Of a DNA stretch of 58,410 nt, positions 14,215-21,928 are shown in pieces (the stretch's first letter is position 1; every line of letters starts with the position of its first letter). The stretch is from NCBI GenBank assembly GCA_012839895.1, contig DUML01000106.1, positions 1-58,410 of the forward strand, given 5' to 3'. The stretch is from Peptococcaceae bacterium (GTDB lineage: Bacteria > Bacillota > Desulfitobacteriia > Desulfitobacteriales > Syntrophobotulaceae). The translations under genes were made by a program, and so were the position numbers. Under the pieces are notes generated by a model. The model saw only the letters and a list, made by a program, of their open reading frames with translations. It was not told where the DNA came from and made no database searches.

Positions 14215-16110
14215 ATGTCCGAAATCTTATTCCTGGCCACATATCCTGAACTTGCTGAGGTAGCCCAGGAGATATGCGCCGGCACAGATGATGTAACTAT
14301 AGAAGTAGCCAGAATGGATGCAGCGGTAAAACGCTCTTGGGAGGCGCAAAAAGAGGGTTATTCCGTACTGGTCAGCAGGGGAGTGACTACCTGGAAAATT
14401 CGCAGTTCAGGGATCGATCTGCCTGTAGTAGATGTTTCCATTGGCGGTTATGATATTGTACGTGCCTATTTTGAAGCAAAAAAAATAGGGAATAAGATTG
14501 GAATAGTAGATGTTGAAGAAGTGATTCTGGGGATAGATGGCTTTGAAGAGATAATCGGGGATAAAATTGAGAAATACGTTTGCAGCAATGATCTTGATGA
14601 CATTCATAAAGGAGTAGCCTACCTACGTGCCCGGGGAGTAGAAGTGGTTATGGGCAAAGTGGCTATGGCTAATGAAGCAAAGAGGCAGGGTATGGATTCA
14701 GTAGTAATTACTTCAGGAATTGATTCTGTCCGCAGAGCAATCTATGAAGCCCGCCGGGTAAATATAGTCCGAAAACAGGAGATGCGCAAAGCCGAACAAT
14801 TTAAAGCAATTTTAAACTTTACCTATGACGGGATAATCGCCTTGGATAAAGAGGGTAAAATCACGGTTTTTAACAAAACTTCGGAAAAAATATCCGGTTG
14901 GAAAGCCGAAAGGGCTATCGGAGCTCATATTACCGATGTCATTCCTAAAGCCCATTGCCATAAACTTTTGGAAACAGGGGAACCGGAGATAGGAGAGTTT
15001 CTGGAGATTGGGGATTCTCGGGTAATTGCCAACCGGGTACCGATCATCGTTGATAATAAGGTAGAAGGTGTTGTAACTACTTTTCAGGAAATAGAAAGGA
15101 TTAAAAGAATAGAGGGTAAAGTAAGGCGGCAGTTAGCGGAGAAAGGGTTTATCGCCAAGTATACTTTTAATAGTATTCTCGGGGAAAGCCCTGCCATTAA
15201 AAACGCCATTTCCCTGGCAAAAGAGTATGCCAGCGTAGACTCTACCGTAATGATCTATGGTCCAACGGGGGCAGGCAAAGAAATGTTTGCTCATGCCATC
15301 CATAACGCCAGTAAAAGAAAAAATGAACCCTTTGTAGCGGTAAATTGCGCTGCCCTACCGGAAAATCTATTGGAAAGTGAATTGTTTGGTTATGTAGAAG
15401 GAGCTTTTACGGGAGCCAGAAAAGAAGGTAAAGTGGGTATGTTTGAAATGGCCCATCGAGGCACACTGTTTTTGGATGAAGTCGGGGAGATGTCGCCGAG
15501 GCTCCAGTCTCGTCTCCTTAGGGTGATTGAGCAAGGTGAAGTGATGCGTTTAGGGGACAATAGCATTATTCCTGTAGATGTGCGCTTAATTGCCGCTACC
15601 CATCGCAATTTGAAGCAGATGATGGGAAAAAATGAATTTAGGGAAGATCTTTTCTATAGAATAAACGTACTGTCATTAAAACTCCCTTCTTTGAAAGAGA
15701 GAGGCAAAGATATTATTCAAATAGCAAAAAAATACCTGGATGAATTCTGTGCAAGAAGGGGTAAGCCGACGGGAGTGTTTTCCGAAGAGGCTGAAAAGCT
15801 TCTGCTGAACTATAATTGGCCTGGTAATTTGCGGGAACTCCGCAATGTCATGGAAAGGTTAGCTATGAGACCATGGAAAAAAATAATAAGCTCTGAAGAC
15901 ATCTCAAGTGTTTTGCTGCTTGATGAAGAGCACTCGCTAAAACAAGAGGGGACATATGGTCAAGGTCAGAGGACTGCCTTTGATAGAAATAATTTAATTG
16001 ACAAACAAACAATTAAACAAGTTTTAGAGGAGACCCGGGGCAATAAGACCGAAGCTGCCCGTCGCCTGGGAATCAGCAGGACAACACTTTGGCGGAAGCT
16101 GCGGGAATAA
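14215..16110 (+). CDS. Sigma-54-dependent transcriptional activator with PrpR_N sensor, PAS and Fis-type HTH
   Basis: A 631-aa enhancer-binding protein. Order of domains: PrpR_N ligand domain (about 1-190, with VLVSRGVTTWKIR...PVVDV), PAS (about 200-300, FDGIIALDKEGKI-like), AAA+ domain with Walker A GPTGAGKE (residues 349-356), the sigma-54 contact loop GAFTGA (396-401) and R-finger region, then a C-terminal Fis HTH (NKTEAARRLGISRTTLWRKL, about 610-630). PrpR_N members sense small carboxylic or 2-methylcitrate-like acids. It lies 16 bp after trkH but faces the catabolic operon, and is very likely that operon's activator. Confidence 0.93.
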   Translation: MSEILFLATYPELAEVAQEICAGTDDVTIEVARMDAAVKRSWEAQKEGYSVLVSRGVTTWKIRSSGIDLPVVDVSIGGYDIVRAYFEAKKIGNKIGIVDVEEVILGIDGFEEIIGDKIEKYVCSNDLDDIHKGVAYLRARGVEVVMGKVAMANEAKRQGMDSVVITSGIDSVRRAIYEARRVNIVRKQEMRKAEQFKAILNFTYDGIIALDKEGKITVFNKTSEKISGWKAERAIGAHITDVIPKAHCHKLLETGEPEIGEFLEIGDSRVIANRVPIIVDNKVEGVVTTFQEIERIKRIEGKVRRQLAEKGFIAKYTFNSILGESPAIKNAISLAKEYASVDSTVMIYGPTGAGKEMFAHAIHNASKRKNEPFVAVNCAALPENLLESELFGYVEGAFTGARKEGKVGMFEMAHRGTLFLDEVGEMSPRLQSRLLRVIEQGEVMRLGDNSIIPVDVRLIAATHRNLKQMMGKNEFREDLFYRINVLSLKLPSLKERGKDIIQIAKKYLDEFCARRGKPTGVFSEEAEKLLLNYNWPGNLRELRNVMERLAMRPWKKIISSEDISSVLLLDEEHSLKQEGTYGQGQRTAFDRNNLIDKQTIKQVLEETRGNKTEAARRLGISRTTLWRKLRE

Positions 16111-16373: not shown

Positions 16374-16390
16374 TTGGCATATGATTTGCT
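16374..16390 (+). promoter_or_regulatory. Sigma-54 (-24/-12) promoter
   Basis: TTGGCATATGATTTGCT. The invariant GG (16376-16377) and GC (16388-16389) are separated by exactly 10 bases, and the sequence matches TGGCAY-N5-TTGCW. Transcription would start near 16400, about 38 nt before the first gene. It is the only site of this quality noticed in the window. Confidence 0.88.
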
Positions 16391-16438
16391 ATTTTGAATA
16401 TTTAGAATTTTCGAGCAGAGCAGAAGGAGGTGTGCAGA

Positions 16439-16717
16439 ATGGCACTAAAACAATTGCCAATTGTACCTTCAGGTGATCCCGGAGGTTTGGCTGAATCGGC
16501 AAACGCTGGAGTTCAAAGGATAAATCGCCCCGTAATTTCCGATGCAACCAAAATAGACCCAATAGTTATCCTGTTTTGCCCAGATGGAGCTATTTCTCTT
16601 GATGAGAGTGGGTTTGTGATCAGCTATAAGTTCTGCAAAGGCTGTGGTATATGTGCAAAGGAAAGTGAAGGAATAGTGATGGTTCCTGAATACACAGGCC
16701 CGAAAGGCATTTTTTAA
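16439..16717 (+). CDS. 2-oxoacid:ferredoxin oxidoreductase delta (ferredoxin-like) subunit, single-cluster variant
   Basis: A 92-aa PorD-type subunit that normally carries two [4Fe-4S] clusters between the PorB active-site cluster and ferredoxin. The family frame is clear: INRPVI..., then FCPDGAI (Cys47) and FCKGCGICAKES (Cys66, Cys69, Cys72). The first three Cys of motif 1 are missing and the fourth Cys of motif 2 is Ser76. Because clusters are shared between motifs, the four remaining Cys are exactly the set for one cluster. AAGGAGG lies 8 nt before ATG 16439, which is preferred over GTG 16430. First gene of the sigma-54 operon. Confidence 0.85.
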   Translation: MALKQLPIVPSGDPGGLAESANAGVQRINRPVISDATKIDPIVILFCPDGAISLDESGFVISYKFCKGCGICAKESEGIVMVPEYTGPKGIF

Positions 16718-16736: not shown

Positions 16737-17885
16737 ATGAATAAAGTACTCATCACAGGAAGTGAAGCTGCAGCACTGGGAGCAAAGCTCGCCAAAATTG
16801 AAGTGCTAAGCTATTATCCTATTACTCCGGCTTTCCCGGCCATGGAAAGACTGAGCAAATATATTGATGACGGTGAACTTAACTGTAAATTTATCAGGGC
16901 GGAGTCGGACCACAGCGCCTTAGCCGCGGTGCTGGGCGGGTCACTGGCGGGTGCCCGTAGTTATACAGTCACCAACTCCCAGGGATTGCTACTGATGACT
17001 GAAGTAGTCTATCATGTGGCGGGACTGCGTCAGCCCATCGTTATGGGGGTTGCCAACAGGGCTTTGTCAGCTCCTCACAGCCGGTTCCCGGAACATGGCG
17101 ATGTTGTTTCCCAATCAGCCAGCGGCTGGATTCAACTTTTCTGTGAAAATAACCAAGATATTCTCGATAACACTATTCAAGCCTTCAGAATTGCTGAAGA
17201 GCTAAGAGTTCCCGTAATGGTTAACTATGAGGGGTATTTGCAGTCCCATACCCTGGAAGAGGTATTTGTGCCTGAACAATCTAAAGTCGACGCTTTTCTC
17301 CCGCTGAAGCGTCAGCCGGCGTTAGATATAAACAATCCGCGAGGGGTCAATACCGTAACAAGCCCGGATTTTTATCCTTATTACAAATTTAACCAGAATG
17401 AAGCAATGCTGGAGTCATTAAACCTTATTCCTAAAGTTGCTGCTGAGTATAATCAAGAATTCGGTGCCAATTCCTGCGGATTAATCGAATGCTACCAAAT
17501 GGAGGATGCTGAGCACGCCATAGTGGCTATGGGTTCTATAGTGGGCACTGCCAGAATATTAGTAGATAACTTAAGAAAAGAAGGCCGGAAAATCGGACTG
17601 ATTAAAGTAAAAGTCTGGAGGCCTTTCCCTGTAAAAGCTATTCTTGAAGCGTTGCAGAATGTCAGCTTTGTAACAGTTTTGGATAAAAACATTGTTTTCG
17701 GCGTTGGCGGTGCTCTGGCTACAGATCTGAAAGCTGCGGCTTATGGACGTGGAGAGATGGTAATTAACGGCGCAATCTTGGGACTTGGCGGAGGAAAATG
17801 CGGTGTTGAAGAAATTAACGCTGCTGTTATGGAAACTGAAAGCGCCGGTTCCGACAAGAATAAATCTGTGTGGATCGGATTGTAA
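16737..17885 (+). CDS. 2-oxoacid:ferredoxin oxidoreductase alpha subunit (PorA/VorB type)
   Basis: A 382-aa alpha subunit containing the pyrimidine-binding and transketolase-C-like domains. Family motifs: SYYPITPAFPAMERL near residue 22, the ESDHSALAAVLGGSLAGARSYT segment with the conserved Glu near residue 60, TNSQGLLLMTE, and NRALSAPHSRFPEHGD. The AENNQE region appears as CENNQD. With PorB it oxidatively decarboxylates a 2-oxoacid to an acyl-CoA. The substrate is not deducible. ATG 16737 is placed 9 nt after AAGGAGG. Co-transcribed with its neighbours (19-bp gap upstream, 15-bp downstream). Confidence 0.9.
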   Translation: MNKVLITGSEAAALGAKLAKIEVLSYYPITPAFPAMERLSKYIDDGELNCKFIRAESDHSALAAVLGGSLAGARSYTVTNSQGLLLMTEVVYHVAGLRQPIVMGVANRALSAPHSRFPEHGDVVSQSASGWIQLFCENNQDILDNTIQAFRIAEELRVPVMVNYEGYLQSHTLEEVFVPEQSKVDAFLPLKRQPALDINNPRGVNTVTSPDFYPYYKFNQNEAMLESLNLIPKVAAEYNQEFGANSCGLIECYQMEDAEHAIVAMGSIVGTARILVDNLRKEGRKIGLIKVKVWRPFPVKAILEALQNVSFVTVLDKNIVFGVGGALATDLKAAAYGRGEMVINGAILGLGGGKCGVEEINAAVMETESAGSDKNKSVWIGL

Positions 17886-17900
17886 AGGGGGGACTAAAAA

Positions 17901-18761
17901 GTGACAATAAACGTCAATAGCTTGCCGCAAGTAGAATTGTTTGGTCAAGGTAACGTGGGATGTAAAGGCTGTGGTGCCGCAATCGCCGGGAGACAGGCAA
18001 TGAAGGTCCTTGGTGAAAGAACAATAATCACTATTCCTGCTTCTTGTATGGCCACCCTTGGAGGAAGTAATACAAGGTCGGCATGGAGAGTACCGTTCTA
18101 TCATACCCTTTTTGAATGCGCACCGGCTGTTTCCTCAGGAATAAGGGCAGCTTTGGAAATACAGGGTATTAAGGATGTCAACGTAGTTTCCTGGGGCGGA
18201 GATGCAGGCAGCGCTGATATAGGTTTCCAATCTCTTACGGGAGCCGCCGAACGCCAGGAGAACATCATTCATGTGCTTTATGATAACGAGATGTATATGA
18301 ACACAGGAGGTCAGACCGGCAGCCAAACCCCAATTTATGCTATTACAAGTAACGGTTCCCTAGGGAAGAAAGTTCGCAAAAAAAACATGCTGGCCATTAT
18401 GGAGGCTCACGGTATTGATTATGTAGCCAGCGCCAATATAGCCTATCCCGAGGATCTTATGGCTAAATTCCAAAAGGCAGCCGCTAAAAAAGGATTTTCT
18501 TATATCCATATTTTGGCTCCTTGCCATCGTGGTTGGGGTATAAAACCGGAGGAAACCATTGAAGTTGCCAGGAAGGCTACGGAGTGCGGTCTTTGGGAAC
18601 TTTTTGAAGTTGACGAGGGCAAGAGAACCCGGACCTATGAACCAAAACTGATTCCTGTTGCCGATTATTTCAAGGCTCAGGGAAGATTTAAGAATCTTAC
18701 GGATGAACAAATCGCTGAATTCCAGAAATTTGTGGATGACTATTACGGGAAGGGAGAGTGA
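17901..18761 (+). CDS. 2-oxoacid:ferredoxin oxidoreductase beta subunit (thiamine pyrophosphate-binding)
   Basis: A 286-aa TPP-binding subunit. Cys21 and Cys24 (GCKGCG), Cys49 (PASCMA) and a Cys in APCHRGW near residue 213 correspond to the four ligands of the proximal [4Fe-4S] cluster. The TPP/Mg motif reads GDAGSADIGFQSL...YDNEMYMNTGGQTGSQTP, close to the usual GDGGTADIG...DNEAYMNTG. The start is GTG after a GGGGGG RBS. Together with the alpha subunit it forms the catalytic core and appears fully functional, in contrast to the unusual gamma and delta subunits. Confidence 0.92.
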   Translation: MTINVNSLPQVELFGQGNVGCKGCGAAIAGRQAMKVLGERTIITIPASCMATLGGSNTRSAWRVPFYHTLFECAPAVSSGIRAALEIQGIKDVNVVSWGGDAGSADIGFQSLTGAAERQENIIHVLYDNEMYMNTGGQTGSQTPIYAITSNGSLGKKVRKKNMLAIMEAHGIDYVASANIAYPEDLMAKFQKAAAKKGFSYIHILAPCHRGWGIKPEETIEVARKATECGLWELFEVDEGKRTRTYEPKLIPVADYFKAQGRFKNLTDEQIAEFQKFVDDYYGKGE

Positions 18762-18767
18762 GTAAAG

Positions 18768-19190
18768 TTGGTAGAGGTAAGATTTCACGGACGTTTTGGT
18801 CAGCCGGTCGGTAAGATTACCAGGGCCATGGGCAAGAAGCTAATGGCGGAAGGTAAGCACATCCAGGTCTTTGATGGTTTCGCCGCTTTCAGACCAGGAG
18901 CCCCGATGAATTCTACTATCAGAGTTTCCGAAGATGTAATCGTTGAACGCTCGGCAAACGAAACTACCCCGGATGTGGTTGTCGTCCTGGATAATAGCCT
19001 TTTCGGGGTAACGGATGTAACCAAGGGACTCAAGCCAAATGGCGTCGTCTTGGCTTTGGGTGTTAATTCCGATGTCTTAGGCCCTAAAGCCCAGAACGTA
19101 AAATTTATCCAACTGGATTCAGAGTTCGACAGAGGAGGTGAACCTGAGGAGGAATTGCTTAAAGCTTTTAAAAAATACAACATTTTGTAA
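18768..19190 (+). CDS. 2-oxoacid:ferredoxin oxidoreductase gamma subunit, short divergent form
   Basis: A 140-aa gamma subunit. The fold start (EVRFHGRFGQPVGKITRAMG) and later FRPGAPM, PDVVVVLDNSL, VTKGLKPNGVV match the family. The normal glycine loop GRGGQG reads GRFGQP, RRGAP reads RPGAP, and the usual C-terminal ~45 residues with the 'N..MLGA' motif are absent (family members are about 180-190 aa). No open frame continues past the stop, so this is not an obvious recent truncation. The start is TTG, 6 bp after the beta gene. Confidence 0.8.
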   Translation: MVEVRFHGRFGQPVGKITRAMGKKLMAEGKHIQVFDGFAAFRPGAPMNSTIRVSEDVIVERSANETTPDVVVVLDNSLFGVTDVTKGLKPNGVVLALGVNSDVLGPKAQNVKFIQLDSEFDRGGEPEEELLKAFKKYNIL

Positions 19191-19257
19191 GGCTTCCTGA
19201 CTTCGTGGTTTAGCAATTATCAATCAATGATTAATTTTATTAAAGGTGGTTGGAAGA

Positions 19258-20582
19258 ATGTTTGAATTGAACTTTTTGGCTGATACTGCTTTAGCCAAAA
19301 CCTTGGCAGCAAATATGGACGTAATATCATTGGTCGCTCTCGTAATTGCAATTATTGTCTCTATTTGGAAAAATACCAACCTCGGAACCCTGGCTCTCGG
19401 TTTAGCTTTAGTTATTGGTCATCTGATCGGCGGGGTATCGATTAAAGAACTGATTTCAGGATATCCGACTAATCTTCTCTTAATGCTGGCCGGAGTAACT
19501 TTCCTCTTTGGAATTGCTCAGACCAACGGGACTCTGGATAAAATCACCAAGTATACGGTGAAATCGGCCAAAGGCAACGTGGCAGTACTACAATTGTTTT
19601 ATTCTTTTTAGCATTTTTCCTTTCTTCGATCGGTCCGGGACAAATTTCCATATCTGCTTTAATGGCTGCTCCTGTAATGGTCCTGGCAGCGGAAGTAGGA
19701 ATTCCTCCCCTTTTGATGGCCCTGGTAGTAGGTAACGGTGCACAAGCCGGCGCCATGTCTCCCCTGTCTCCTAACGGTATTGTCGGTAACAGTGTATTAG
19801 CCGATATGGGTATCACTAATATGGCTATGACCATGTGGATAAACATGCTCATTGTCCATATTATCATTGCTGCCCTGGCTTACTTTTTATTCGGCGGTCT
19901 TAAATTATGGAAAAATCGCAATGATGCCAACAGTCCCGCCAAAGTCCTGGCCGGTATTCATGTTGAGCCTTTTACCACTGCCCAGAAGGCAACTTTAGTT
20001 GCCATAGCTATCTTAATTATCGCTGTTATCGGTTTCGGTCTCGATATCGGATTTACAGCCTTCTTGCTCGGTTCTATTCTGATTCTTGCCAAATGCGGCG
20101 ATGAGAAAGCTGCCTTCAAAGCAATGCCTTGGGGAGCTATTATGCTTGTAACCGGTGTCACAGTTATGGTAAAACTCATGCAGAACATTGGCGGTATGGA
20201 TCTCTTCGCTGAAATTATGTCTAATTTCTCTACTCCGTTAACTGCCAACCTTGTTGTAGGTTTCTTTGCCGGTATCGTATCCGCTTACGCCAGTACTTCC
20301 GGTGTTATTATGCCGGCCTTCCTGCCTATGGCGCCCCTGCTTTTAGAAAAAATCGGTGCAAGCCCGGATATGCTGCCCGGTTTAATTACTACTATCGTTG
20401 TTGCCGGACACCTTACAGACATGAGCCCACTTTCCACCACCGGTGCGGTATTTATCTCCGGAGCGCCTGACAGTATTGATTCTAAACCTCTGTTTAAAGG
20501 CATGATAATCTGGGGAATTTCGATGGCCTTTGTCGGAGCGGTAATCTGCTGGGTGCTCTATTCAATATTAAGAATTGTTTAA
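19258..20582 (+). pseudogene. MatC-like dicarboxylate permease with a single-base frameshift
   Basis: Two adjacent frames encode one polytopic carrier. The first (from ATG 19258, AAAGGTGGT upstream) ends at TAG 19612 after GYPTNLLLMLAGVTFLFGI, typical of the MatC N-terminal domain. The second continues with FFLSSIGPGQISISAL, MSPLSPNGIVG and later STSGVIMPAF in the -1 frame. Adding one T to the five-T run just before the TAG restores a single protein of about 441 aa. Either sequencing error, true mutation or -1 slippage at the T run. It lies between the oxidoreductase and hydro-lyase genes and is probably the substrate importer. Confidence 0.8.
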
Positions 20583-20758: not shown

Positions 20759-21928
20759 TTGAACTTTTTTGCACAATCCCTAGCAAGGTCAGCATCGTTA
20801 CCTGAAGTCACCAGCGGACAAGTTATTAATCTAAAAGTTGATTTAATATTGGGTCATGATGGAACATGGTCCAAGGTATTATCGGCCTGGAAGAAAAGCG
20901 AATGTAAATTGGCTGAAGGAAACAAAGTCTTGATAACAGTTGATCATGCTTTTCCTGCCCCTTCAATTCAAGAGCGCATTTTGCAAAAAGAACTTTATAA
21001 AATAGCTTCAGATAAAAAAATTCAGTTATATAATCAAGGGGAAGGAGTCTTGCATCAGGTTGTAGCAGAAAGAATTCCCCTTCAGCCCGGCACTATCATA
21101 GTGGGAGCTGATGGACATGTAGCCACTTCCGGAGCATTCGGGGCAATTGCTTTTTCCGTATCCCCGGAGATATTGGCCTCGGTCCTGGAAACAGGGTACT
21201 ATGAGCTGAAGGTGCCTGAAGTTATTACCATTAACATTGAGAACAATCTGCCGGCCAATACAATGGCAAGGGATTTAGCCCTCTATATTATGCAGAACTT
21301 CCATCAGAATATCAAAGGCAAAGCTGTAGCCATACAAGGAAGTTTTCTGGATTCTGCCAGCATCGACAGCAAAATGGCACTTTGTAATTTCCTTCCTGAA
21401 GCAGGTGTTGTAACGGCCTTTATTCTTCCGGCTGAAGCAGAGTCAGAAGGAGAAGTGTTAAATGTAGATGCGAACTCAATTAAGCCGCTGCTCGCAATAC
21501 CCCCGGCGTCCACCAACGTCAAATCGGTAAAGGACTTGGAGGGGAAACAAATATCTGTGGCCATCATAGGTGGATGTTCTGCCGGCAGGCTTGAAGATAT
21601 GTTGGCTTGTACTAACATTTTAAAGGGAAAAAGAATCCATCCCGGGGTTACCCTTCTCATCGTGCCGGCATCTGCGGCAGTAGCAAATAAAATGGATGAA
21701 ATGGGTTTAACGTCTCTTCTACGGGAGAGTGGCGCAGTTATCCTTCCGCCGGGTTGCGGCCCGTGCCCGGGAAAACACCTTGGACTCTTATCTGCCGGTG
21801 ATGTTGCGATAACTACAACAATACGCAATACACCGGGACGCATTGGTTCCGAGGAAGCTGAAATATATTTGGCTTCACCTCTTACAGTTGCCCTTTCAGC
21901 TCTAAATGGAGCAATAACCGGCCCTTAG
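20759..21928 (+). CDS. LeuC/aconitase-family hydro-lyase large subunit, atypical, no small subunit nearby
   Basis: A 389-aa protein of the 3-isopropylmalate dehydratase large-subunit family. Visible: GHDGTW (residues 32-37), VDHAFPAP (61-68), GEGVLHQV (94-101), GADGHVATSGAFGA (116-129) and the three [4Fe-4S] ligands Cys273 (GGCSAGR), Cys333 and Cys336 (GCGPCPG). In known enzymes the fourth block is GADSHT and the first Cys is in CTNGR. Here Gly119 replaces the active-site Ser. No LeuD-like swivel domain is encoded in the window. The start is TTG with a GGGGGG RBS. It probably (de)hydrates or isomerises a hydroxy-carboxylate; the substrate is unknown. Confidence 0.85.
   Translation: MNFFAQSLARSASLPEVTSGQVINLKVDLILGHDGTWSKVLSAWKKSECKLAEGNKVLITVDHAFPAPSIQERILQKELYKIASDKKIQLYNQGEGVLHQVVAERIPLQPGTIIVGADGHVATSGAFGAIAFSVSPEILASVLETGYYELKVPEVITINIENNLPANTMARDLALYIMQNFHQNIKGKAVAIQGSFLDSASIDSKMALCNFLPEAGVVTAFILPAEAESEGEVLNVDANSIKPLLAIPPASTNVKSVKDLEGKQISVAIIGGCSAGRLEDMLACTNILKGKRIHPGVTLLIVPASAAVANKMDEMGLTSLLRESGAVILPPGCGPCPGKHLGLLSAGDVAITTTIRNTPGRIGSEEAEIYLASPLTVALSALNGAITGP

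Follow-up and report, generated by a model that had tools for sequence, protein, structure and literature searches.

A PorD-type subunit with the ligands of a single [4Fe-4S] cluster in a porDABC operon of a Peptococcaceae bacterium

The electron wire of PFOR consists of three clusters which, ordered from TPP to the surface, are the proximal cluster in domain VI (β-subunit) and the medial and distal clusters in domain V (δ-subunit; PMC5020499). In two-cluster ferredoxins, site I is built from Cys1–3 of motif 1 together with Cys4 of motif 2, and site II from the reverse combination. The cysteine ligands of domain V form two such sets, C689/692/695/755 for one site and C745/748/751/699 for the other (PMC1459171). 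The separate δ-subunits of the PorD/KorD type (TIGR02179; solved as chain G of 9BT4, the Methanosarcina acetivorans PFOR) are recognized by two CxxCxxCxxxC motifs with eight cysteines. Monocluster bacterial-type ferredoxins have lost one cluster from the two-cluster fold and kept the other; they are free ferredoxins and usually retain site I. Fewer clusters than in PFOR are also found in the two-subunit OFORs of Sulfolobus tokodaii (StOFOR1/2), which work in spite of having no domain V at all. The PorD described here differs from both, being an enzyme subunit that retains site II, in a system where the δ-subunit is kept with one cluster. No usable description of a single-cluster PorD or of this operon was found in the open-access literature, an absence that carries little weight.

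Identity and cysteine pattern of PorD

The window, by which we mean the whole 58,410-nucleotide stretch analysed (contig DUML01000106.1), carries adjacent porD, porA, porB and porC genes in an arrangement that is syntenic in relatives (Table 1). An earlier note made from these letters had taken the product of the first gene for a PorD-type subunit, and its porABC neighbours and its fold bear this out. The nearest solved relatives by sequence are the δ-chains of oxalate oxidoreductase and of M. acetivorans PFOR. The best match in the protein data bank, for sequence and fold alike, is the oxalate oxidoreductase δ of Moorella thermoacetica (5C4I chain B), which, unlike window PorD, is a fused γ–δ chain with two clusters. 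The fold model, of moderate quality (mean pLDDT 69.6), adopts a bacterial ferredoxin fold and matches chains G and H of 9BT4 (TM 0.58–0.59 by target) as well as the oxalate oxidoreductase δ. Size, fold, porABC gene order, site II and the CKGCGICA motif are common to window PorD and the PorD/KorD δ-subunits. However, the other PorD-like sequences compared have eight cysteines and two sites, whereas the clade to which window PorD belongs lacks all site I ligands and, in 9/9 members, is two residues shorter than the eight-Cys orthologues in the loop that follows Ser76 in motif 2. Against TIGR02179, window PorD scores 48.0 bits (E 1e-12), below the curated cut-off of 60.05. Since it has four cysteines instead of the eight of the two canonical motifs, and no site I, it is best described as a PorD-derived single-cluster variant and not as a regular member of the family.

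The cysteines of window PorD number exactly four (C47, C66, C69 and C72). Spacing and alignment agree with the earlier proposal that the site I ligands are gone and all four site II ligands are kept, and the chance that four random losses among eight cysteines would make up exactly one cluster's set is small (p = 0.029). What was once motif 1 mostly reads K-V/I-N/D-P-I-V in the four-Cys members, with aspartate or asparagine at the Cys2 place in 9/9. At the motif-2 Cys4 place, the aligner may set a deletion over the column instead of a Cys-to-Ser replacement, and no cysteine is present either way. An altered site involving Ser76 and the conserved Asp/Asn at position 40 is conceivable.

Table 1. 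Features of the porDABC locus in the window
Feature	Positions	Strand	Basis
porD, single-cluster δ-subunit, 92 aa	16439..16717	+	ATG start at 16439, stop ending 16717; nine same-pattern orthologues
porD ribosome-binding site AGGAGGT	16425..16431	+	sequence
Former motif 1: T37, D40 and V43 at the site I Cys1–3 places of eight-Cys orthologues	16547..16567	+	alignment
Cys47, site II ligand contributed by motif 1	16577..16579	+	conserved in 28/28 operon members
Cys66, Cys69, Cys72 (CKGCGIC), site II ligands contributed by motif 2	16634..16654	+	conserved in 28/28 operon members
Ser76 (AGT), at the spacing of the site I ligand motif-2 Cys4	16664..16666	+	Ser in 9/9 clade members
porA, α-subunit (POR_N, PFOR_II), keeps YPITP and NRALSAP	16737..17885	+	
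porB, β-subunit (TPP), with GCKGC, ASCMAT and APC holding the Cys of the proximal cluster	17901..18761	+	
porC, short γ-subunit (140 aa) with GRFGQPVG	18768..19190	+	
PrpR_N/sigma-54 activator, likely operon regulator	14215..16110	+	syntenic in relatives
Sigma-54 (-24/-12) type promoter match TGGCATATGATTTGCT upstream of porD	16375..16390	+	consensus match only

Distribution and origin of the site I loss

A search of 83 genomes of the class returned 18 PorD sequences belonging to this type of operon (E below 1e-37), of which eight, that of the window included, have four cysteines, two have seven and eight have eight. A Clostridia MAG (L037) contributes a ninth four-Cys copy, bringing the four-Cys sequences in the alignment to nine. 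A 398-genome sample of the phylum yielded eight-Cys members in two other families and, among the loci inspected, no further four-Cys ones. The four-Cys members come from at least seven genera (g1, g2, g5, g9, g10, g14 and g16) in two families (f1 and f2). In the alignment of 28 operon PorD sequences the site II cysteines are invariant, while site I is intact in 17 sequences, disrupted in two and missing from nine. Alignment to homologues, which the earlier note had put forward as a check, thus recovers a clade with the same pattern, made up of nine orthologues including that of the window; eight cysteines are confined to its sister branch and to more distant operons instead of being common to all close relatives.

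Since all eight cysteines are present in this operon elsewhere (17 sequences), the loss of site I is derived. In a tree of PorA and PorB, the nine four-Cys members form a single clade (support 100/99), and the seven-Cys pair, from two genera (L054:9792-10058 and L120:4817-5083), falls among eight-Cys forms in the sister branch. This free tree suggests that the four-Cys and seven-Cys losses were separate; the AU test does not reject a topology that unites the two (p 0.40). In the seven-Cys pair, motif 1 is rearranged to C-x-C-x-x-V, with valine in place of Cys3 and a loop two residues shorter (N-C-T-C-L-E-V in L054), and the motif-2 Cys4 is kept, so that these forms look like a half-way state of a stepwise loss. 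The view that a coordinated loss across two motifs is hard to explain by random decay is not supported in that form, since a stepwise path suffices: loss of the first site I ligand frees the other three from constraint while site II stays constrained, and no coordination is needed. The mechanism by which the cluster was lost is ordinary and its outcome unusual.

Local decay or an assembly error can be set aside as the source of the pattern, on which nine orthologues agree. The porD reading frames are intact across the nine four-Cys genomes, and dN/dS is 0.10 (L048/L050) and 0.21 (L049/L037) for the two clearly unsaturated pairs, most others being saturated at synonymous sites, which leaves the ratio usable for few pairs. 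Intact frames and low dN/dS argue against decay and support purifying selection on the four-Cys PorD clade.

Partner subunits and operon context

PorA and PorB are both closest to M. acetivorans PFOR. Every PorB of the operon retains all four cysteine columns of the proximal cluster, and window PorB matches TPP_enzyme_C, as is expected of the β-subunit of a 2-oxoacid:acceptor oxidoreductase. The YPIRP motif of the α-subunit, which includes Arg31, is the hallmark of oxalate oxidoreductase (PMC5020499); window PorA and the relatives inspected carry YPITP instead, and an identity as oxalate oxidoreductase is rejected for this reason. No compensating cysteine, one both conserved through the four-Cys clade and absent elsewhere, was found in the alignments of PorA, PorB and PorC. 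Across the operon family PorC measures 134–146 aa, compared with about 177–185 in usual γ-subunits, and mostly carries GR[FY]GQPV where the latter have GRGGQG. The short γ-subunit was considered as a correlate of the cluster loss and dismissed, all PorC of the operon being short, those of eight-Cys members as well.

The operon is broadly syntenic, with variations, in the order sigma-54 activator, porDABC, transporter, aconitase-like gene, GlcD and GlcF. Most of the 28 operon members have a -24/-12 match in the 400 b that precede porD, and this conserved promoter type, together with the neighbouring PrpR_N activator gene, suggests induction by an organic acid. In the window a frameshift, which may be a sequencing error or a break of recent date, divides the CitMHS-like transporter gene (19246-20582; Pfam PF03600); three relatives (L047, L048 and L050) keep both halves in one frame. 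The transporter gene is followed by a gene for a 389-aa LeuC/aconitase-like protein (20759-21928; PF00330), beside which no LeuD-type partner was seen and which is conserved alongside porDABC and GlcD/GlcF even in distant families. The gene content of the operon (sigma-54 activator, transporter, aconitase-like protein, GlcD/GlcF) resembles that of an inducible pathway for organic acids. The genome holds two further PorA-like genes as parts of ORFs 1192 and 1219 aa long, the size of a single-chain PFOR, so that the porDABC enzyme need not carry bulk pyruvate oxidation.

Electron path and competing readings

Which cluster was lost can be judged from a published docking model, in which the S. tokodaii ferredoxin superimposed on PFOR domain V has its cluster I 14 Å from the proximal cluster, with contacts at Ile46 and Pro94 (PMC5020499). 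The ligands of that cluster include Cys45, Cys51 and Cys93 (PMC2946596), which correspond to motif 1 and motif-2 Cys4 and adjoin the two contact residues. Because the modelled cluster I faces the proximal cluster and its ligands adjoin the contacts, site I would occupy the medial place; the lost cluster is thus probably the medial one and the kept cluster the distal one, an assignment that draws on a single docking model of a ferredoxin fold with pseudo-two-fold symmetry.

The reading that we prefer, at a probability of about one half, is a working PorDABC-type 2-oxoacid:acceptor oxidoreductase whose δ-subunit holds just one [4Fe-4S] cluster, in site II, site I having been abandoned in the ancestor of the nine-member clade with the loss of four ligands and the shortening of one loop. 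The δ-subunit would be docked at its usual place, with the remaining cluster holding its fold together, and the enzyme would retain the proximal cluster in β and the distal cluster in δ without the medial relay between them. Electrons would then reach site II from the proximal cluster in one long hop and continue to the acceptor. At assumed edge-to-edge distances of 18–20 Å, the Moser–Dutton estimate is about 150 to 10 per s, a slow rate and perhaps a sufficient one. A slower, specialized enzyme would be tolerable because the pathway looks inducible and the genome has two other PFOR-like genes. The rewired electron path that the earlier note had read from the cysteine pattern is plausible. More tentatively, the enzyme may be described as a 2-oxoacid oxidoreductase without the middle cluster of its three-cluster wire and with the outer one kept, its electrons either crossing an unusually long gap or using a new exit.

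A serious rival, which we nevertheless think unlikely, is that the retained cluster is purely structural and that electrons exit PorABC at the proximal cluster, straight to an external ferredoxin or some other partner, with PorD as a shaping subunit, in a manner likened to the two-subunit OFORs without domain V. The S. tokodaii OFOR indeed works on its proximal cluster alone, and cluster II of its ferredoxin is termed structural (PMC5020499); the lack of replacement ligands in the partner subunits points the same way. However, PorD would still occupy the pocket where the external ferredoxin docks in two-subunit enzymes, and the strict conservation of site II would be expected equally of a redox role. 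Simplest as an electron path, and rather improbable in our estimate, is loss of the distal cluster, with the wire merely shortened to the proximal cluster, one relay and the acceptor. Its appeal is that the ferredoxin fold is pseudo-symmetric, for which reason a medial and distal assignment based on superposition could be inverted; yet the published superposition sets cluster I, not cluster II, by the proximal cluster, and the contact residues flank Cys45 and Cys93 (PMC5020499, PMC2946596).

The same internal symmetry, described in PMC1459171, would geometrically permit PorD to have re-docked around the pseudo-two-fold axis, bringing cluster II into the medial place. Such a change of interface might be expected to mark PorB, where strictly fixed clade-specific changes fall in 0 columns (1 in the sister clade); PorB is highly conserved anyway, so this count says little about docking, and we regard the re-docking as very improbable. 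Least credible of all is decay of PorD, in an enzyme on its way to losing the δ-subunit or its function. The absence of half the ligands and the frameshift in the neighbouring transporter gene of the window speak for it, but the same pattern is fixed in nine genomes with intact reading frames and conserved gene order, dN/dS lies at 0.1–0.2 and the site II cysteines are never lost.

Whether a PFOR-type enzyme needs both its medial and its distal cluster is hard to test, since removal of ligands usually damages the protein. Here, in several lineages of a group of anaerobic bacteria, evolution has deleted one whole site while the remainder has stayed under selection. Operons with eight, seven and four cysteines would make up an evolutionary series, already at hand, for the cluster change, in which relay length, cluster order and choice of acceptor become directly comparable between natural orthologues, and they offer a natural test of how short or how gapped such an electron wire can be.
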